Source of the DNA: a virus
Length of the DNA stretch: 64,000 bases
Strand: one strand, 5' to 3'
Virus record (IMG/VR): IMGVR_UViG_3300024260_000002
Location: 1-64,000 of that record
Below are positions 6,390-57,208 of the stretch, in pieces. How positions within the stretch are numbered: position 1 is the first letter of the stretch; each line of letters opens with the position of its first letter. Both the position numbers and the translations under genes were made by a program. The notes under the pieces were generated by a model. That model made no database searches. It was not told the DNA's origin and saw only the letters and a list, made by a program, of their open reading frames with translations.

Positions 6390-7655
6390 ATGAAAAAGAT
6401 GCTAATCTTTGTCGATGCAAAAGGCAATAAAAATAAGTTCTATCAATTAGAAATGATTGGTGATACTGTTGAAGTTGAATATGGCCGAGTTGGTAGTAAT
6501 CCACAAAAACGATCATATTCTGGTGGTGAACGTACATTCAATAAAAAAATGAATGAGAAACTTAAAAAGGGTTATACCGAAAGTAAAGTTAACTTAGAAG
6601 TTATTGAAGAGATTACTGGAAGTAAAGGAAATATGTTAGATATTGCTATGGAGCAAATAACAACAGATGATATTTCTAAATTACTTATAGCTGAATTAGT
6701 AAAACAAAATATTCACAATATTACAAGTAATACAAAAATTAAATATGATATTGATACTGGTTATTTTAAAACAGCTCTTGGAATCATTACCCAAGAAGGT
6801 GTTGAAGAGGCGATTGAATTATTAACCGAAATTGAAACTTTTCAAGACAAAATGGGTAAACATTCAGATGCTGAGTACGATAAGTTTGTAAAACTTAATG
6901 AAAAGTATTTCAGTATAATTCCAACAAAAATTCAAAATCTTAGAGATTATAAAAACTTACTTATTACAAATGAGAAAGTGGAATCTCAGATGGATATTTG
7001 TACCGCTCTTTTAAATTCTTTGGATATTATTGAAGATGAGAAAGCTAAGATTAAAGCTAAAGATTCAGGAGAAACCATTATTTATGAGAAAGTATTTGAA
7101 GCAAGTGTTTTACATTTAACAGATAAAGTTGAATATAAAAGATTAGAAGATTATTTTCATGATTCTAAAAATAGAAGACATGGACATGGATCTTATAAGA
7201 TTAGTAATATTTTTAGAATAAGTCTTGGAGAAGAAGAAAAAAATTATAGAAATGATCTTGATAATCAAGAAGAACTTTTTCATGGTACGAAGGTTTCTAA
7301 TCTTTTAAGTATTCTTAAAAGTGGTTTACTGATGCCTAAATATTCCCCTGGTCAATCAACAGGTTATATGTTTGGTCAAGGTTTATACTTTGCTAGTCAA
7401 AGTACCAAAAGCTTAAATTATTGTGATGGTATGTATTGGAATAATTCTAAATCACAAGATAAGATTTATATGTTTGTTGCTGATATTGCAATGGGTAATT
7501 ATCAAGTACCAAGTTCAAGTCGAAGTAGAAAACCTGATGCAGGTTATGATTCATATTGGGCAAAACCTGGTAAATCCGGTATATCAAACGATGAAATGAT
7601 TATTTTTGAAAACAATCAAATTAAATTAAAGTATATTTTAGAGATTACAAAATGA
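6390..7655 (+). CDS. Poly(ADP-ribose) polymerase-like protein with WGR domain
   Basis: The first 75 residues form a WGR domain (motif YGRVG at 31-35, Tyr in place of Trp). A helical PARP regulatory domain and the ADP-ribosyltransferase domain follow. The catalytic triad is visible: His298 in LFHGT, Tyr333 in GLYFA and Glu402 in SNDEMIIF, the last matching the polymer-forming Glu of PARP1. It should transfer ADP-ribose from NAD+ to a protein or nucleic acid, and the WGR domain suggests activation by DNA ends. It has its own start after AAGGAG and stands before a gp47-like nuclease and recombination genes. Targets could be host or phage factors. Confidence 0.9.
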   Translation: MKKMLIFVDAKGNKNKFYQLEMIGDTVEVEYGRVGSNPQKRSYSGGERTFNKKMNEKLKKGYTESKVNLEVIEEITGSKGNMLDIAMEQITTDDISKLLIAELVKQNIHNITSNTKIKYDIDTGYFKTALGIITQEGVEEAIELLTEIETFQDKMGKHSDAEYDKFVKLNEKYFSIIPTKIQNLRDYKNLLITNEKVESQMDICTALLNSLDIIEDEKAKIKAKDSGETIIYEKVFEASVLHLTDKVEYKRLEDYFHDSKNRRHGHGSYKISNIFRISLGEEEKNYRNDLDNQEELFHGTKVSNLLSILKSGLLMPKYSPGQSTGYMFGQGLYFASQSTKSLNYCDGMYWNNSKSQDKIYMFVADIAMGNYQVPSSSRSRKPDAGYDSYWAKPGKSGISNDEMIIFENNQIKLKYILEITK

Positions 7656-7805: not shown

Positions 7806-9023
7806 ATGAATAAAGAAATCACAGGAATTGATGCTAACTTACCAGATGGTGTAGTAAAAGAATTATACAAAAGAATTGACAAGTATATTGAATATTTACC
7901 AGAAGATGAAAGATATTTTGCTAAGCAATTAATTATTTGGATTAGTGGTGATAACAGTGGAACAAGTTCTGTTAATACTGCAATCATTGAAAAGAGAAGT
8001 ATGTTTATGATCTTTATGGCAATTGGTAAAAGAAAACAATTTAATGTTGATAGTGATCCAAAATACATTATGTTATATAAAAAATATCAAACACATATGG
8101 AAGTAAAATATAGTTTACAGATTCCTTCTTGGCAAGAATTATCAGACTTTTATTCATATCCTGCAATGACTGCTGATATTTTTAAGGTTGAGATTAAAAA
8201 ACATGATGATGATATTCAAAGATTTGTGAAAGCAAGTCAGGTGGAAAAAGAGATTAATGATGTTCCTGACGCAGTATCTTTTATTCCAACACAAACAGAT
8301 GTTGATCGTCTTGGTAAAGTAAAGGACCGTGTAGTGAAAAATATTAGTGAAAATTATGAAAAATGTATAGAAGCAGCTGTTGATTTAGATATGGATACTT
8401 TTGGTTTTATGAAACCTGTTATTGAAGAATTTAAAGGTGATAAAGGCACCATGAATACTTTTCTAAAAGCATTAGATAATAAGAATCCTTTAAAGCTTTT
8501 CGAAGCGGCTACAAAACGTAAACCAAAAAGTGAAAAACTTAAAACTATTTTAGAGCAATATGTAGAATTTATTGATGATATGAAAAAAACTGATGAGGCG
8601 GCTGCACATACAGCTACTGATGAAGTTGCTGTTGATGTGTTTAAGGTGTTTAATGACGCTTCAAAATCACAATGTCATACTACACCTGATGTAGGTGCAA
8701 CTCGTGGAGATACTCAAAAAGTTCCTTTCGTTGCAAAAGAACTATTAATGTTAAATAAAGTAGAAATTGTTCAACATATTGATCAGATGATGTTAAAAAT
8801 TATAAATGATACTGTTTCAACATTTGGTGTTGAATTTGAGAGTTTCAATGATTATGAAAATGAAATTTTTAATGAAGCAATTGTTTCGTTGAAAAAACGT
8901 CACCAATTTGAAATATATGGTAGATGTCAATCTCTTCGTGAGATGATTGCACTATTAGATATTTATGTTAATAGACGCGGACATAATATGTTATCACATG
9001 TTATTGAAACTTACGAAGCTTAA
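7806..9023 (+). CDS. Hypothetical protein (405 aa)
   Basis: The family was not recognised. The frame is open from 7704, but the ATG at 7806 follows AAAGGA at good distance and avoids overlapping the membrane peptide. The protein is hydrophilic and helical, with no signal or membrane segment. It lies directly before the gp47-like nuclease gene, so a role in DNA replication or recombination is an inference from position only. Confidence 0.65.
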   Translation: MNKEITGIDANLPDGVVKELYKRIDKYIEYLPEDERYFAKQLIIWISGDNSGTSSVNTAIIEKRSMFMIFMAIGKRKQFNVDSDPKYIMLYKKYQTHMEVKYSLQIPSWQELSDFYSYPAMTADIFKVEIKKHDDDIQRFVKASQVEKEINDVPDAVSFIPTQTDVDRLGKVKDRVVKNISENYEKCIEAAVDLDMDTFGFMKPVIEEFKGDKGTMNTFLKALDNKNPLKLFEAATKRKPKSEKLKTILEQYVEFIDDMKKTDEAAAHTATDEVAVDVFKVFNDASKSQCHTTPDVGATRGDTQKVPFVAKELLMLNKVEIVQHIDQMMLKIINDTVSTFGVEFESFNDYENEIFNEAIVSLKKRHQFEIYGRCQSLREMIALLDIYVNRRGHNMLSHVIETYEA

Positions 9024-11719: not shown

Positions 11720-11747
11720 ATCTTTAAAGATTTCGATCTTTAAAGAT
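11720..11747 (+). repeat. Two copies of palindrome ATCTTTAAAGAT
   Basis: Copies at 11720-11731 and 11736-11747 lie in the gap between the rIIB-like and rIIA-like genes. The same 12-bp palindrome forms the arrays at 19489-19631 and 49600-49791. It may be an operator, an RNA hairpin or part of a replication or partition site. Confidence 0.75.
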
Positions 11748-11802: not shown

Positions 11803-14466
11803 ATGATAATTCAAGATGAAAAATCAATAGTAAAAATGAACGGAGCACTTGAAACTGCTGACTTTGAAATTAAAACAGATGATGGAAAAATGTTTCACAT
11901 TCTTTCAAATCTTTATTCTAATCCATTAGGCGCAGTAGTAAGAGAATTAAGTACAAACTGTGGAGATGGTCATAAAATTGCAGGAAGTGAAGAATTACCT
12001 TTTGATATTATTCTACCTGGTAGAATGGATAGCGGTAACTTTATTACTTTTCGTGATTATGGTCCTGGTATGCCACATGATGTGGTTATGAGTATTTTTA
12101 CTACATTTGGTCAAAGTACTAAATCTGGTTCAAATACAGAAACTGGTTGTTTAGGTTTAGGGAGTAAATCTCCTTTAGCTATTACTGATTCATTTACGGT
12201 TACAAGTGTTAATGATGGTTTTAAAACAACATATTCCGTATCAAAAGATGCTCAAAGAAAACCAGTACTTGCTAAATTTGGAAGTATTGAAACAGAAGAA
12301 GAAAATGGTTTAAGTGTAACTGTTCCTTTATCAAGTACACATCAAAATAATGTTATGAATGAAATTATTTCACAACTAGAATTCTTTAAAGTTAAACCAA
12401 ATGTTTATAATGGTGATAAAGAAATTAATATGAATTGGAATGATAATTCAAGATTCTTTTCTTTAACTGATGAGATATTTATTAAAGAAAAAAGATATGA
12501 TAAGGATTCTAGAATCATTCAAGGTGAGATTGGTTATTCATTTAACAGTTCAACTTTAATTAATACGTTTGTTATTGATGATAAAGATCAACATAAATTA
12601 GAATTTTTGGAAGTTAAAGATCAACATATTTCTAGAGAAACTTTTGAGATATTAAATAAATTTTTTAATAGACATGAGTTGCAGATTTATATGCCAATGG
12701 GTACTGTAACATTTGCTCCTTCGCGTGAAGAGCTAATTTATGATATATTAACTTGTCATAATATTATGGAACAACTATTAAAAAGTATTCAACTTATTGG
12801 TCATAAATATAAAGATATTTATGACCTTGTTGAAAACACTTATCAGTATAGACAAATCAGACAAGGTTATTCTAGTTCAAGTGAATATATTGCTGGTCTA
12901 GATGATAAAATGAAACGATTTATGTCTATTATTGGATGGGGTTTTGAAAATTCATTTCGTACTAAATGGAAATTATTAGATGGTACAGACGCTAATATAA
13001 ACATAGGTCCAATTAAAAGTTTTCCTAAGTTTAATCAATTTATTGAGCTTCGTCATATGACATATAATCCTTGGTCTTTCCAGATTCAAACGAAAAATAT
13101 GATTACAAAAAAGAAAGACCGTTGGTCAAGTCCAGATGAAGTTACAATCTCATCCGGTCCAATTTATGATTTCGTTGATAAAGTGAATTATAAAAATATC
13201 AAGTTTGTTCTTGTAGCTAAAGATGAAAAGTTTCATAAGAAGCACATCAATAATTATTTAACTTCTGTTAATACAGGTAAAAATGGTTTAGGTGATACAA
13301 TAGATGTTGTTATGATTAAGACTTTAGATATACATGCAACAGATGAGATGCAAAAAGAGTTTATAAAGTATTGTGGATTATCTCCTGAAAATGCTTTACA
13401 TTATGAGAAAGTTCTTGAAATTTCTCAAGAGTTAATTGATTCAGGTAAGGCACCTGTTAAAGCATATGAAAGCAAACCTAAAACTTTACGATACGCTTAC
13501 TTAAAAAACGTTTCTAGAGATAATAGAAATTGGAGTACTGCGGAAGTAACATCAAAAACAATTAAAGAAGATTTGATTGGTTTATATATCCCAACTTTCA
13601 ATAATAAGATTATTTTTAAAAATTCAACAAAAGAGTTGTATCCTGAGTTATGGAGCATAGTTGAAAGACCAAGAACAAAAGAAGATGGTTTAAGTTATCT
13701 TTTAAAATTTTTAAACACTTTTGGTCATAAGATTAATTTTGATATTAAGCTTTATAGTGGTCATGAAAATAATTTTAAAACTACCCAACTAGTTCACCTT
13801 GAAGATTTTATAAATGCTGTTGTTGCTAAATCTAGATATCAAAATGCTTGGCATGCTTTAAATCGTACACAAAAAACATTCAATGGTAATATTACACAAG
13901 TGGATTCTGTTTCTACTTTTGTAAATAATATTGATTTTTATAGTGGAATATATGATGGTAAAATATCTGATAGACATAAAACTTTATTAGCTAAAATACA
14001 AAAAGAAATGAAACCATTAAAGGATTGGTTTTTTAAAGATGAACATCCAATTATAGCATTATATGAAAAGTGTAAAAAGTATAATGTTCGAAATGATTAT
14101 ATGGGTATACTTCAAAATACAAATCTAATTAATTATCCGGAAGAATTAAAAATTATAGGCGGTTATTTAGATGTTAAATTTGATTTTGTTAACTTAGATG
14201 TTGATTTTGTTAAGGTTGATGATATGTATAACTTAGGTGAATTTAGAAGTTCAAATAATTTTAAATATGGTTACAATCAGGTTTCTGATATGTTTACACG
14301 ATTAGAAAATACATTATATTCAATCAATAAGCAAGACTTTATGGAAGAATTTGCACCAGGCTTAAATACATTTGGAAGAATTCCAGTAGTTATTGATGAC
14401 GAAGAAGAACAAGATAGTGCTATTAATAAGCATGATTCTACCGAGGTAGAATTGGTAGCTGAATAA
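11803..14466 (+). CDS. rIIA-like GHKL ATPase-domain protein
   Basis: The N-terminal 200 residues form a GHKL ATP-binding fold: the N-box VVRELSTNCGDGH, the G1 box FRDYGPGMP and the G2 loop GCLGLGSKSPLA. This is the arrangement of T4 rIIA. The length is 887 residues against 725 in T4, the extra sequence being in the poorly conserved middle and end. It follows the rIIB-like gene and starts after AAGGAAA behind the palindrome pair at 11720. Like rIIA it is expected to work with the rIIB-like protein at the membrane. ATP binding is inferred from the motifs. Confidence 0.85.
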   Translation: MIIQDEKSIVKMNGALETADFEIKTDDGKMFHILSNLYSNPLGAVVRELSTNCGDGHKIAGSEELPFDIILPGRMDSGNFITFRDYGPGMPHDVVMSIFTTFGQSTKSGSNTETGCLGLGSKSPLAITDSFTVTSVNDGFKTTYSVSKDAQRKPVLAKFGSIETEEENGLSVTVPLSSTHQNNVMNEIISQLEFFKVKPNVYNGDKEINMNWNDNSRFFSLTDEIFIKEKRYDKDSRIIQGEIGYSFNSSTLINTFVIDDKDQHKLEFLEVKDQHISRETFEILNKFFNRHELQIYMPMGTVTFAPSREELIYDILTCHNIMEQLLKSIQLIGHKYKDIYDLVENTYQYRQIRQGYSSSSEYIAGLDDKMKRFMSIIGWGFENSFRTKWKLLDGTDANINIGPIKSFPKFNQFIELRHMTYNPWSFQIQTKNMITKKKDRWSSPDEVTISSGPIYDFVDKVNYKNIKFVLVAKDEKFHKKHINNYLTSVNTGKNGLGDTIDVVMIKTLDIHATDEMQKEFIKYCGLSPENALHYEKVLEISQELIDSGKAPVKAYESKPKTLRYAYLKNVSRDNRNWSTAEVTSKTIKEDLIGLYIPTFNNKIIFKNSTKELYPELWSIVERPRTKEDGLSYLLKFLNTFGHKINFDIKLYSGHENNFKTTQLVHLEDFINAVVAKSRYQNAWHALNRTQKTFNGNITQVDSVSTFVNNIDFYSGIYDGKISDRHKTLLAKIQKEMKPLKDWFFKDEHPIIALYEKCKKYNVRNDYMGILQNTNLINYPEELKIIGGYLDVKFDFVNLDVDFVKVDDMYNLGEFRSSNNFKYGYNQVSDMFTRLENTLYSINKQDFMEEFAPGLNTFGRIPVVIDDEEEQDSAINKHDSTEVELVAE

Positions 14467-19253: not shown

Positions 19254-19496
19254 ATGAAACCAGAAGATCAAAGATCTTATAAAGGTAGTGGACATAAAGT
19301 TGATTATCATGTGAGAGAAAATGGTAAGCCTATTGGTAATTGGTGGGAAGATGTTGCTTCCCCTCACAGTAAAAGTAAATTAGTAATGGGTTTAGAAAAT
19401 GAGATACATCAAGGTATCGAAGAATTTGAGCATCAACGAGCAGAAGATTCAGAAGAACATAGAAAACTTATTATAGAAGGAATTTCTGATCTTTAA
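19254..19496 (+). CDS. Hypothetical hydrophilic protein (80 aa)
   Basis: Not recognised. It is a charged protein rich in His and Glu, with NWWEDV in the middle and a helical end. It starts after AAGGAG. Its last two codons and stop (GAT-CTT-TAA) form part of the first ATCTTTAAAGAT palindrome, so the repeat overlaps the gene end. Confidence 0.6.
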   Translation: MKPEDQRSYKGSGHKVDYHVRENGKPIGNWWEDVASPHSKSKLVMGLENEIHQGIEEFEHQRAEDSEEHRKLIIEGISDL

Positions 19497-19631
19497 AGAT
19501 AGAAAATAAATGATCTTTAAAGATCATTTTAGTCAAAAAAAAGCGATCTTTAAAGATAGAAAAATTTTACAATTATAGTCAATAAATTTATTAACTATAA
19601 TTTAAAAAAACAATAAACGATCTTTAAAGAT
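19489..19631 (+). repeat. Four dispersed copies of ATCTTTAAAGAT
   Basis: Exact copies start at 19489, 19513, 19546 and 19620, in very AT-rich sequence between two genes. Spacing is irregular, unlike the fixed 23-bp period at 49665. The region also holds poly-A and AAAATTTT tracts. Its role is unknown. Confidence 0.8.
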
Positions 19632-25319: not shown

Positions 25320-25563
25320 GATGACACTCATCACAACACTTGTAAAAGATATGTTCTTAGATGATTGGTATTATGTTTATAATGATAGACGAAAGTATGG
25401 TAGAAGAATTAAAATTGTTAATCGAAGATTTACATTTTCTAAACAAGATGAAATTCGATTAAATAAAGAGTTGGTTAAATATGATTATGTAATTTTAAAA
25501 CATGGTTTTGTTAAATCTAAAAATTATAAAGATTATTATGCTATACATTTAAAAGATCTTTAA
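25291..25563 (+). CDS. Hypothetical basic protein (90 aa)
   Basis: Not recognised. Basic, with many Tyr, Lys and Arg residues (YNDRRKYGRRIKIVNRRF). The ATG at 25291 lies within the previous gene; an ATG at 25321 in the same frame is possible. Probably nucleic-acid binding by composition. Confidence 0.55.
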   Translation: MTPKEILKNKMTLITTLVKDMFLDDWYYVYNDRRKYGRRIKIVNRRFTFSKQDEIRLNKELVKYDYVILKHGFVKSKNYKDYYAIHLKDL

Positions 25564-25619
25564 TGATCGTTTTAGATAGTATAGAAATAATACTTAAACA
25601 AGATTACGAAGGAATATAA
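25563..25619 (+). CDS. Possible 18-aa leader peptide before thyX
   Basis: The ATG overlaps the previous stop (TAATG) and the frame ends just before the thyX start. Its last codons GAA-GGA-ATA include the thyX ribosome binding site, so its main effect could be coupling of translation. It is very short and may be chance. Confidence 0.25.
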   Translation: MIVLDSIEIILKQDYEGI

Positions 25620-29367: not shown

Positions 29368-29459
29368 TAATTTAACATAGAAATATACTAAATTATCCAT
29401 AGAGATAAAAAAATTTAACATAGAAATAAAAAATATAATATAAAATTAAGGAAATAGTT
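29368..29459 (+). promoter_or_regulatory. AT-rich gap with repeated TTTAACATAGAAATA
   Basis: The gap between dut and the next gene holds two exact copies of TTTAACATAGAAATA about 40 bases apart, plus several TATA-like stretches. A promoter for the ribonucleotide reductase genes is plausible here, but no standard -35/-10 pair can be assigned. Confidence 0.35.
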
Positions 29460-49147: not shown

Positions 49148-49519
49148 ATGAAAGAAAGATTACAGTCTGGTAAGATGACTATAAATTGGAACAACATGGA
49201 TTATGTTGAAGTAGAGAAAGATGTTGATTGTTACATAGTACATTATATGTTTCGTCCTAAAATAAAAACAGAAAAGTTAAAGATTCTAAAAGAATTTAAA
49301 ACTGTTACTTTAATGAGAGACTTTTTTCAGAAGATGAATTTCTTTGAAGTTGGAAATTATTTTGTAAATGCAAATAACTTTTCAGTTATAACTGATGATT
49401 CTTATAATGAAAAATCAAAAAAGAATACTGTTACATGTTATATGAAAAATACTGCTCCTTTAGAAATAGAAATTACTAGAGACCAATGGACATCAATTAA
49501 AAATACTAAGCTACTGTAG
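49148..49519 (+). CDS. Hypothetical protein (123 aa)
   Basis: Not recognised. Basic, mixed alpha/beta protein without membrane segment. It is the last rightward gene; its final codons lie in the terminator stem. Starts after AAAAGGAAAAAAA. Confidence 0.65.
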   Translation: MKERLQSGKMTINWNNMDYVEVEKDVDCYIVHYMFRPKIKTEKLKILKEFKTVTLMRDFFQKMNFFEVGNYFVNANNFSVITDDSYNEKSKKNTVTCYMKNTAPLEIEITRDQWTSIKNTKLL

Positions 49520-49540
49520 CTTAGTATTTTTCTTGTCTTT
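49501..49540. terminator. Terminator of the rightward arm
   Basis: AAATACTAAGCTAC pairs with GTAGCTTAGTATTT and is followed by TTCTTGTCTTT. It ends the rightward transcription arm. The stem is symmetrical, so it may act in both directions. Confidence 0.85.
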
Positions 49541-49599: not shown

Positions 49600-49611
49600 A
49601 TCTTTAAAGAT
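49600..49611. repeat. Single copy of ATCTTTAAAGAT
   Basis: An isolated exact copy lies 53 bases before the regular array and is preceded by AAAAAACG as at 11720. Confidence 0.7.
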
Positions 49612-49664
49612 AATAACCATGTAAAATTATATATTAGTTGTTTATTTCGTTATCTAATTTTTCT

Positions 49665-49791
49665 ATCTTTAAAGATCGAAAAATTTTATCTTTAAAGATC
49701 GAAAAATTTTATCTTTAAAGATCGAAAAATTTTATCTTTAAAGATCGAAAAATTTTATCTTTAAAGATCGAAAAATTTTATCTTTAAAGAT
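49665..49791. repeat. Six tandem 23-bp palindromic units
   Basis: ATCTTTAAAGAT occurs at 49665, 49688, 49711, 49734, 49757 and 49780, always separated by CGAAAAATTTT. Each unit has a 12-bp perfect palindrome plus an A/T tract, like iterons or parS/centromere arrays. The period of 23 bp is roughly two helical turns. A protein that binds it is not identified. Confidence 0.9.
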
Positions 49792-49823
49792 AAATATTCC
49801 TCTGAACTGAGCCACAAGAAATT

Positions 49824-49850
49824 ATTGCATATACTTTGAGTATATGCAAT
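49824..49850 (-). terminator. Hairpin ending the leftward arm
   Basis: ATTGCATATACT and AGTATATGCAAT form a 12-bp stem around TTG. In the leftward direction it is followed by TAATTTCTTGTGG, similar to the TTCTTGTC tails of the rightward terminators. It lies behind the last leftward gene. Confidence 0.7.
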
Positions 49851-53644: not shown

Positions 53645-54835
53645 TTATCCTTTGTTTATTTCATTTAATATCCAACTATTAACTGTTATTGCAGTTACTG
53701 TTGGAAAATTTGTATCGAGGTAGCTAATTACTTGTGCTTCAATAAGGCCATTATAATTAACATCAAACATTTCTGCTTTTAAAGTGTCAAAATATCCAGT
53801 TACGATATTAAGTAAATCTATATTAATAAAATCATCTTTAAATGTAGTAAATGCTTCATCTATAAATTGTCTCATTATTGTATTGTACTTAGTAGTTAAA
53901 TATGTATCAACTTGTTGTGCAATTAATGCGTCGTAGTTTGTACCTAGTAGTTCAGCTCTAAGAGTGTCGAACTTGGCATCTATAATTGTATCAAATGAAC
54001 TGTTTAAAAAATCATCTTTAAACGTATTAAACATCTCTTGTACCTTTTCAGGTGTAAGTGATTTTAATAGGAGATTTTTTAACTCAATTTCTTTATCGAG
54101 TATAATTTTTATTTCATTATTTTGATATACTGATGTTATCAAAAAACTATTCGAATCTATTAGCGCTTGAACAGCAGCAATACTTTCATCAGTAACAAAC
54201 GTTATATGACTTTTAACACGTTCTAATAAATTTATTAATTCAGTGCTAGTCAAAATCTGCATAGTATCATTTGTATTTGATAATATAAGTTCTAATTTTT
54301 CAAAAGATATAAATACATTTTCTTCAAGTTTTTGATCTAATATATTTGTTGTGTATTGCTCTACTAGATTTAAATCTATAAGAACTTCAGGATTCAGTTG
54401 AATCACTTTAATAATACTATCAAATAAACCATTAGCTTCTAAATCAGTTATATTAGGAACTCTTGTTACAAAATGTAACTGGCTATATAATAATGCATGT
54501 ATATCATTCATTAGAATTTCGTCATAAACTTTAGTTGCATCACTCATCAATAGGATGATCTGCTCTTCAGTTATATAATAAGCTTCTAATGCTTGTTTAA
54601 ATAGAATTTGTAATTCATACTCGGTAAAAATATTAAGTAAATTATCCGGGTCAGCTATTGCTGATTCAATTTTAGTTCGATCAAGAAGAATATATTCTCT
54701 GTCGAACTTTATACGTTGATCAATAATTAAATTTAAATCATTTTGATTAGCGAATGTAACAGGATCATGTAGGGTACTATCTCTAAGTACAGAATCTGTT
54801 ATAACTTCATAAATAGGGCTAGTGTAACCTGCCAT
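53645..54835 (-). CDS. Helical virion protein with internal repeats (396 aa)
   Basis: Not recognised. Near the C-terminus two repeats of about 65 residues share FKDDF, FDTLRAE or FDTLKAE, NYDALI or NYNGLI and QV...YL. It is acidic and all-helical, probably forming a rod. It lies between the gp6-like wedge gene and the fibre genes, so a connector or fibre-attachment role is a guess. Confidence 0.6.
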   Translation of the reverse strand: MAGYTSPIYEVITDSVLRDSTLHDPVTFANQNDLNLIIDQRIKFDREYILLDRTKIESAIADPDNLLNIFTEYELQILFKQALEAYYITEEQIILLMSDATKVYDEILMNDIHALLYSQLHFVTRVPNITDLEANGLFDSIIKVIQLNPEVLIDLNLVEQYTTNILDQKLEENVFISFEKLELILSNTNDTMQILTSTELINLLERVKSHITFVTDESIAAVQALIDSNSFLITSVYQNNEIKIILDKEIELKNLLLKSLTPEKVQEMFNTFKDDFLNSSFDTIIDAKFDTLRAELLGTNYDALIAQQVDTYLTTKYNTIMRQFIDEAFTTFKDDFINIDLLNIVTGYFDTLKAEMFDVNYNGLIEAQVISYLDTNFPTVTAITVNSWILNEINKG

Positions 54836-54847
54836 TTTTTCTCCTTT

Positions 54848-57208
54848 TTATACTACTTGTATATTTAAATTAATTGAATCATAATCAAAGAAGAAATAAG
54901 GAGGAACAAAATTAACTATATCAAATAGTTTTAAATCTGCTCCACCTAATTTATTATCCATTGCATTATAAATAATTCTGGCGCTGTTTGTTGTAAACAC
55001 TTTGGGACTGATAACATCGACATTTTTAATCATGTCATATATTTTAACAATTTCTTTTTCAAGTAGTGTCTCATAAAATTCAGTTTCAAACCCTTCAGCT
55101 GTTCGAAGAACTTTATATATTGTATCCTTCATATCATATTCAAGTTCTTCAATTGATTCATAATCAGATAAAGAGTATTTATATTTATCGATAATAAGAT
55201 CGATTACAATAATATTTCTAGTAGTAAGAATATCACCATTAGTATTCTTATCAATAATATATTCTCTATATTTAGGTTCAATTGCAATCGTGTTATAAAA
55301 TGATTGTGTTGTTCCTACATTAAAACTAATTGTTTTAATATCTTTTTCCACTCGAAAGAAAGTATCTAGTTTAGTAAAGAACTTTTCTATATTAGAAAGT
55401 TTAAGATAATTTAATTCCAGAAAAGGTAAATGTAATACATATCTAGTTTCATCTTGAGTATTTAATATATCAAGTTCAGTGTAGTAAAAGTGATCTTGTT
55501 TTTTTACTAGTTGATTATATGAACCAACAGAAGTGTAAGTCATTACAAGTAAAGTATCTTGATAAATATCAATTTCAATATCTGATAAATCATCTTCAAA
55601 TAAACAATATTCATCTAGAAATCTTTGGTTGACAATTTGTTTAAATTCATTATGAATAGAAAGTTCCATATCAAATTTATTACTTCTAAGTTTATATGTA
55701 TATAATGTATTGAAATTTTTAAGTTCAAGACGAGTTTTTCTTTCAAAATAATCATATGTTATATAAAGACCTACAGAATTCTGTAACTTAGTAAGTCTAT
55801 CAGTAGAAGTATCTGTTTTCAATTCTACTTTTATATTTGGTTGTACCATATATGCAGTATAATGATTAAATCTTTTCTTATAATAAAAAGGACTAATTAA
55901 ATCGATACCTTCATATGTTTTAGTTGGCATAAACAATTCTGATTGAAATTCTGATTCTTCTATGTTAAATGTATTTGTTGGCACTATACGTTGATTTGTA
56001 TCTCTGATAATATTATATATAAATAAATGATTTTGAGAGTTAAAGAATTTTGGATCCACGAATGGGATACCATCATCCATTGTATACATAATTTCAAAAT
56101 CATTAATTGATGTAATTGAATTTCTTGTACTATTCTTTTTAATCATTTCGGTTTTTATATCTTCAATATCTTTAATATCCATACCAAGTTCACCACCACT
56201 TAAAGAAAGAACTTTTAAGTTGGTTTTAGAAGCAGTACTATAACCACCTTCATCCTCAGATGAAACAATAATATCTTCAAGATTGATCTCAGCAGAGTTT
56301 ACATTACCTCCTGAACCTTTAGTAAGCTTCGTTTCAATAATAATTTGATCACCCGCAAATAGCTTGCGACCATTAATACCATCACCAACTGTAAATATAA
56401 GTTGATTCTCGGCTATCTTCAAATACAAGTTATCATCAAATTGGCTAGCATTAAATTTATTATATTTAATTTGCATTTGAGATAAATCACCATAACCTTT
56501 AATGTTATCAGTATCTAGTAAATATAAATCATCTAATTCAACTTCGGGTTTTTCATTTGCTTCATTTTTAATCCAAGCTTGAATCTCATAAATATCATCT
56601 AAACTAGGAATATCTAAAGAGAATGAAAATGTTTCGCCAATACCATAATCAGGTATGTTAAATTTGTGGAATGATCTTTTATATTGTCTAAGTCCATTAT
56701 ATTCAACCATGTACATATTTAAATCAGCGTTTAACGGATTCTGTACTTTACTTACTTCAAGTACATTAATTTCTGTATCTGAATATCTCTTTGCTGTTAC
56801 AACTGAGTTATTTACAAAGATTTTTACATCTTCTTCTAATGTATAATTTAATCCTGAACCATCAACAAAACTCACATTTCTTTTAATATCATAAGTAATG
56901 ATTTCACTTTCTCTTAATCTGTATTCAGGGATAAGAAATGATATCTGCATTGAAGCAGGTGTACCAAAAGTAATGTTATAGTTTAGAATACTTGCGTGGA
57001 ATAATAATGAACTAAATTCTGTTGCTGTTGCAGGATTCATTTCGCGTAGCAGCTTATTATAATATATTGCATTATCATATTTAATGTTAGCAAATATATT
57101 AACTAATGTTCCAAGTGCTCCTGTTTTTAACAAAGCAGGATTACTAACTTTTAATGTATCACGAACTATATTTTCATAGTCTAAAAGTGTATCAGTAATA
57201 CTTTTCAT
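54848..57208 (-). CDS. Baseplate wedge protein, gp6/J-like
   Basis: The N-terminus (GTLVNIFANIKYDNAIYY, then MNPATATEFSSLLFHASIL) and the middle GDGINGRKLFAGDQIIIET, KGSGGNVNSA are typical of T4 gp6 and phage J-type baseplate proteins. It builds the inner ring of the baseplate with gp7 and gp53. At 786 residues it is longer than T4 gp6 (660). It is the first recognised structural gene downstream of the signalling operon. Confidence 0.85.
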   Translation of the reverse strand: MKSITDTLLDYENIVRDTLKVSNPALLKTGALGTLVNIFANIKYDNAIYYNKLLREMNPATATEFSSLLFHASILNYNITFGTPASMQISFLIPEYRLRESEIITYDIKRNVSFVDGSGLNYTLEEDVKIFVNNSVVTAKRYSDTEINVLEVSKVQNPLNADLNMYMVEYNGLRQYKRSFHKFNIPDYGIGETFSFSLDIPSLDDIYEIQAWIKNEANEKPEVELDDLYLLDTDNIKGYGDLSQMQIKYNKFNASQFDDNLYLKIAENQLIFTVGDGINGRKLFAGDQIIIETKLTKGSGGNVNSAEINLEDIIVSSEDEGGYSTASKTNLKVLSLSGGELGMDIKDIEDIKTEMIKKNSTRNSITSINDFEIMYTMDDGIPFVDPKFFNSQNHLFIYNIIRDTNQRIVPTNTFNIEESEFQSELFMPTKTYEGIDLISPFYYKKRFNHYTAYMVQPNIKVELKTDTSTDRLTKLQNSVGLYITYDYFERKTRLELKNFNTLYTYKLRSNKFDMELSIHNEFKQIVNQRFLDEYCLFEDDLSDIEIDIYQDTLLVMTYTSVGSYNQLVKKQDHFYYTELDILNTQDETRYVLHLPFLELNYLKLSNIEKFFTKLDTFFRVEKDIKTISFNVGTTQSFYNTIAIEPKYREYIIDKNTNGDILTTRNIIVIDLIIDKYKYSLSDYESIEELEYDMKDTIYKVLRTAEGFETEFYETLLEKEIVKIYDMIKNVDVISPKVFTTNSARIIYNAMDNKLGGADLKLFDIVNFVPPYFFFDYDSINLNIQVV

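Follow-up and report, generated by a model that had tools for sequence, protein, structure and literature searches.

A tandem palindrome array at the convergence of transcription in a jumbo-type phage and a related dyad upstream of promoter-like boxes

The window, i.e. the whole 64,000-nucleotide stretch analysed here (positions 1 to 64,000 of the 181,622-bp IMG/VR record IMGVR_UViG_3300024260_000002, hereafter G000), switches from plus-strand to minus-strand genes, with rightward genes extending up to 49519 and leftward genes starting from 49931. Between these limits, exact copies of the palindrome ATCTTTAAAGAT start at 49600, 49665, 49688, 49711, 49734, 49757 and 49780. The six copies from 49665 on are separated from their neighbours by an invariant 11-base spacer, CGAAAAATTTT, the array being made up of five full 23-bp units and one last palindrome. 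The first-pass annotation had described this array, the extra copy nearby and their location where rightward and leftward transcription meet, as well as groups of two and four copies elsewhere in the window, and was accurate on all these points. The features concerned are:

49502-49536, plus strand: hairpin AATACTAAGCTA-CTG-TAGCTTAGTATT with a TTCTTGT tail (-15.5 kcal/mol), terminator-like end of the rightward arm
49600-49611, no strand: seventh ATCTTTAAAGAT copy, 53 bp left of the array and preceded by AAAAAACG
49665-49791, no strand: array of six ATCTTTAAAGAT with spacer CGAAAAATTTT, in exact 23-bp units
49814-49849, minus strand: hairpin TTGCATATAC-N5-GTATATGCAA with a TTCTTGT tail (-13.3 kcal/mol), terminator-like end of the leftward arm
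11720-11747, no strand: two ATCTTTAAAGAT copies (11720 and 11736), 7 bp past an rIIB-like gene and ahead of an rIIA-like gene, without the box described below
19489-19631, no strand: four ATCTTTAAAGAT copies, between gene 19254-19496 and the next gene

The palindrome is strongly over-represented: 13 exact copies are found in the window, as compared to 0.03 expected from dinucleotide shuffles, and 21 in the whole G000 record, where the reversed-pattern control gives none. The lack of enrichment that the first-pass annotation named as refuting its reading is thereby excluded. Every copy is intergenic or overlaps a stop codon, consistent with the initial description of their placement at gene ends and gaps; the stop codon of gene 19254-19496, for instance, falls within the first copy of the 19489-19631 cluster. 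Clusters of copies are also present at several ordinary gaps. Outside the array, the spacing of the copies varies (16, 24, 33, 65 and 74 bp), so that the 23-bp period is confined to the array, and flank types are shuffled among copies. The array units are 100% identical, which suggests a recent tandem duplication. Helical phasing of the copies was considered and discarded, as the spacings (16, 23-25 and 32-35 bp) depart from multiples of 10.5 bp. Rfam and tRNA scans of the window gave no matches. The hairpin–TTCTTGT form that ends both arms is seen at about 16 sense-strand sites of G000, these two included, at gene ends, and is likely a terminator or processing signal of the phage; the array thus sits in a pocket beyond the terminators of both arms.

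The window belongs to a jumbo-type phage that encodes a multisubunit RNA polymerase of its own. G000 codes for rIIA/rIIB-like proteins, the large subunit of a terminase and a beta-like RNA polymerase subunit of the jumbo-phage kind; identity to the phages listed as matches (phiR1-37, Fusobacterium JD-Fnp phages, PBS1 and others) is only 21-29%. A pattern search retrieved an 84,234-bp IMG/VR contig with the same palindrome (IMGVR_UViG_3300026488_000020, hereafter G001), which encodes RNA polymerase subunits, topoisomerase II, primase and ligase. We infer that G000 and G001 are probably two parts of one genome of ~266 kb, broken at low-complexity coding repeats, because (i) their orthologs fill largely complementary parts of two long relatives, G002 (281 kb) and G004 (273 kb); (ii) their contig ends have low-complexity coding repeats in common; (iii) a closer relative, G011 (92 kb), passes from orthologs of the G001 end straight into orthologs of the G000 start. 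They could also come from two very similar phages. The idea that G001 belongs to an unrelated phage with only homing endonucleases in common was dropped after mapping both contigs to G002 and G004. The joined genome would have one main divergence (G001 8574-8881, skew minimum at 8753), which also carries a dyad cluster, and one convergence, the array. GC-skew mapping, as proposed in the first-pass annotation, placed the peak of the cumulative skew of G000 at 49370, beside the array, which therefore occupies both the sole convergence and the skew maximum. Searches with the array pattern, rIIA and the protein 54848-57208 returned no close relative covering the array. The phage also has a gene for a partition-family protein (171210-172115), many homing-endonuclease-like genes (G000 82967-84604, 124321-126030 and others; G001 1349-2932), several of which adjoin the modules described below, and, at G001 54541-55056, a gene whose 171-aa product carries a GGDEF (diguanylate cyclase) domain.

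The dyad ATC-N6-GAT, or (N)ATC-N6-GAT(N) with its flanking bases, has ATCTTTAAAGAT as its most frequent form. A second motif, the box (TTANN)ATAGAAAT, is abundant in the intergenic regions, its core usually taking the form TTACCATAGAAAT, TTAACATAGAAAT or TTAATATAGAAAT, and often lies shortly 5' of a ribosome-binding site and start codon. A dyad occurs 12-16 bp upstream of the intergenic ATAGAAAT, with a mode of 13, both in this phage and in two relatives, as in the following examples from the window:

25556-25588, plus strand: module ATCTTTAATGAT, 13 bp, ATAGAAAT
29395-29427, plus strand: module ATCCATAGAGAT, 8 bp, TTAACATAGAAAT

Relative to expectations based on dyad density in intergenic DNA, dyads at 12-16 bp are about 30-fold in excess in G000 (16 vs 0.50), and likewise far above chance in G001 (7 vs 0.22) and G011 (8 vs 0.33); G010 has one (0.04 expected). 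As copies within one genome are not independent, the significance of these excesses is overstated. When gaps of 11-17 bp are counted, a dyad accompanies 32 of the 80 intergenic boxes, where about one would be expected, so that over half of the boxes (48/80) are without one. The more distant relatives G002 and G004 display neither dyad nor box, with no dyad at 12-16 bp. The exact 12-mer is differently distributed: all four G001 copies lie within modules, as opposed to one of the 21 G000 copies (at 135777). None of the seven copies of the array and 49600 has a box at the right distance, and the 19489-19631 cluster has no complete dyad-box module.

Dyad-less boxes are often preceded by another upstream sequence, approximately TTGAGAAATACAAATAG, directly before TTACCATAGAAAT (G000 161094, 175986, 176404; G001 9647, 9924, 35105; G011 8008, 8448, 36492). 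Boxes are also found in facing pairs, TTACCATAGAAAT-N10/11-ATTTCTATGGTAA, mostly flanked by dyads (G000 135733-135768, 150823-150858, 176249-176284; G001 8704-8740; G010 12029-12065; G011 ~7071-7107), with one such pair at the divergence in each of G001, G010 and G011. The centre of these pairs is always a tandem of 5-6 bases (AAAATAAAAT, ATTTTATTTT, AAAAGAAAAG, CAATTCAATTC, CTTTTACTTTT, CAAATACAAAT).

The dyad is conserved at orthologous places. In a comparison of G001 and G011 based on 57 reciprocal best pairs, dyad and spacing are kept in seven of seven orthologous modules (gap 13-16), three of them before single genes and four in the divergence region. Since hexamer and spacer bases differ between the two genomes at these modules, conservation concerns ATC and GAT, the interval between them and the spacing to the box, rather than the exact 12-mer. 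Conversely, the two box-less G011 palindromes that could be compared are absent from the orthologous places in G001. The expectation of the first-pass annotation that copies recur at the same positions in relatives therefore holds for the promoter-linked dyads, and fails for the promoter-less copies open to comparison.

Over 31 distinct modules, the bases flanking the dyad covary relative to permutations: complementary pairs number 23 vs 13.6 at ±1 (P = 2e-4), 20 vs 13.3 at ±2 (P = 0.008) and 16 vs 10.5 at ±3 (P = 0.015), these P values being optimistic since copies within one genome are related and not independent. The three inner hexamer pairs show no covariation in the same modules. Flanks are paired at ±1 in 22 of the 26 modules with a core other than the self-complementary ATCTTTAAAGAT, and in one of the five exact ones; modules have the capacity to form a stem-loop beside the box. 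Other complementary triplets are in no clear excess upstream of dyad-less boxes, and the possibility that any hairpin suffices was ruled out, enrichment there being restricted to ATC/GAT. Because the flanks covary and other triplets are not enriched, the ATC/GAT bases themselves matter, and the ability to form a stem seems to have been retained. The data fit both a stem-loop whose closing pairs are read by sequence and a dimer site tending to symmetry. As to RNA versus DNA level, the wobble bias (four ATC..GGT vs no ACC..GAT) comes from too few, and related, copies.

Promoter-associated repeats of this kind have reported counterparts. The PeSL (promoter early stem-loop) cassettes of T4-type phages, reportedly described by Arbiol in 2010 and Comeau in 2014, are likewise stem-loop-forming sequences beside a promoter, repeated in gaps and possibly serving as recombination points. 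The present phage is not T4-type, however, and its dyad mostly lacks terminator traits, separate terminators exist, and the spacing to the box is kept while the sequence diverges. In AR9, another phage with a multisubunit RNA polymerase, an AT-rich conserved box also lies in gaps before genes, but its sequence differs and the published consensus has no dyad at a fixed upstream distance (PMC5312081, PMC7598289). By position and analogy, the box described here would be a promoter, probably an early one. AR9 moreover has a separate late motif, AACA-(6N)-TA/G (PMC5312081, PMC7598289), and an AACA-type motif is enriched upstream of genes in G000 (AACAAATA sites) and G002 (AACAAAGA sites). These are probable late promoters, AACAAATA, which resembles the AR9 motif, being that of the present phage. 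In PBS1 (MF360957), CGTATYRAA, which occurs 16 times in the 250 kb searched, precedes 9 of the 42 hits of the early motif by 9-10 bp. This predicted second early-promoter element is different from ours and is not a dyad; it nevertheless means that having an upstream element is not unique to the present phage.

The N4 virion RNA polymerase, a single-subunit enzyme, reads an extruded DNA hairpin centred at -11, which constitutes the core promoter and whose stem combines conserved and variable bases (PMC4496689). The dyad, too, is an inverted repeat in which some stem bases are conserved and others vary, and it has a fixed place in a promoter-like module; stem pairing is kept through covariation at ±1, ±2 and ±3, although not in the inner hexamer; in contrast to N4, the dyad is distinct from the box, which lies ~20 bp downstream, and its extrusion is putative. 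The array itself recalls plasmid and phage iterons in its tandem identical short sites of constant period, but no adjacent initiator or partition gene was found at the array, the convergences of relatives carry no array, and the other copies are scattered with variable spacing.

Several explanations of the array and its scattered relatives have to be weighed. If the array were a set of bidirectional intrinsic terminators, hairpins stopping the converging transcripts, the location of copies at gene ends would be expected, and some copies are indeed flanked by A/T runs (AACG..CGTTTT at G001 31834, -8.1 kcal/mol). The inner array copies, however, fold weakly (about -0.8 kcal/mol), T is no more frequent on the sense 3' side of the 25 copies (95) than on the opposite one (107), and both arms already have a strong hairpin and TTCTTGT outside the array. 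On these three grounds we reject a terminator role for the array, rate this explanation as very unlikely, and agree with the earlier view that RNA hairpins fit the array less well. That view favoured a site for replication, partition or nucleoid-like organisation. A protein bound to the array might start or stop forks or organise the genome, as suggested by the coincidence of the array with the skew maximum and sole convergence, by the dyad cluster at the inferred divergence and by the partition-family gene; yet for the array the evidence is positional only, and the convergences of the distant relatives G002 and G004 have no array. Furthermore, several ordinary gaps have clusters too, promoter-like modules common to G001 and G011 account for the one at the divergence, the copies comparable between species are tied to promoter-like boxes, and no palindrome-binding or other DNA-binding regulator was found by Pfam among the 30 proteins scanned, mostly common to G001 and G011. 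A role of this kind is in our view improbable, although a bound-protein site at the array is possible; as a whole, the original interpretation is partly supported.

The copies could instead be spreading palindromic repeats, and the array a functionless slippage expansion, if copying by recombination or slippage were tolerated in gaps, as for PeSL cassettes or MITE/REP-like repeats. Each long relative has an abundant palindrome of its own (GAGCAATTGCTC, 21 copies in G002, many within ORFs; AAAAGATCTTTT, 17 copies in G004), as does G011 (TTTATCGATAAA, nine copies), which makes repeat spread a real alternative for the box-less copies, array included. The absence of box-less copies from orthologous places, the identity of the array units and the shuffled flank types point the same way. 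What such spreading leaves unexplained is the fixed distance between dyad and box and the conservation of the dyad at orthologous modules whose sequence has changed, so that we regard it as a possible but secondary explanation.

We favour, with moderate confidence, an account in which the dyad family is an upstream promoter element, either operator-like or stem-loop-forming. The dyad would form the 5' half of a promoter-like module in two parts, in the order dyad, about 8 bp, TTANNATAGAAAT box, ribosome-binding site and gene, and is probably read in DNA, whether by a dimeric regulator or, once the stem-loop is extruded, by the polymerase. The array would then be an orphan, promoter-less cluster of this element, grown recently by tandem duplication between two ordinary terminators; if active at all, it might offer extra sites to the dyad's reader, acting by titration or as a roadblock, titration being the simplest guess. 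We are more confident in the modules than in any role of the array, whose function can be inferred only weakly because a single G000 copy of the exact palindrome lies within a module.

A narrower version of the promoter account, which we think unlikely, is that the multisubunit phage RNA polymerase, or a promoter factor, reads an extruded stem-loop NATC-N6-GATN ~20 bp upstream of the AT-rich box. If true, this would be a hairpin-assisted promoter of the sort known until now from the single-subunit N4 enzyme, which is unrelated, and the array would be a promoter-less hairpin cluster at the genome's terminus.

How the sigma-less multisubunit RNA polymerases of jumbo phages recognise their promoters is poorly understood and, to our knowledge, only one AT-rich box has been described in most such phages. 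A dyad at a fixed distance from the box, with covarying flanks and conservation between orthologous modules, would provide a concrete second promoter element, and suggests a route from a promoter part to a spreading repeat and a tandem array.
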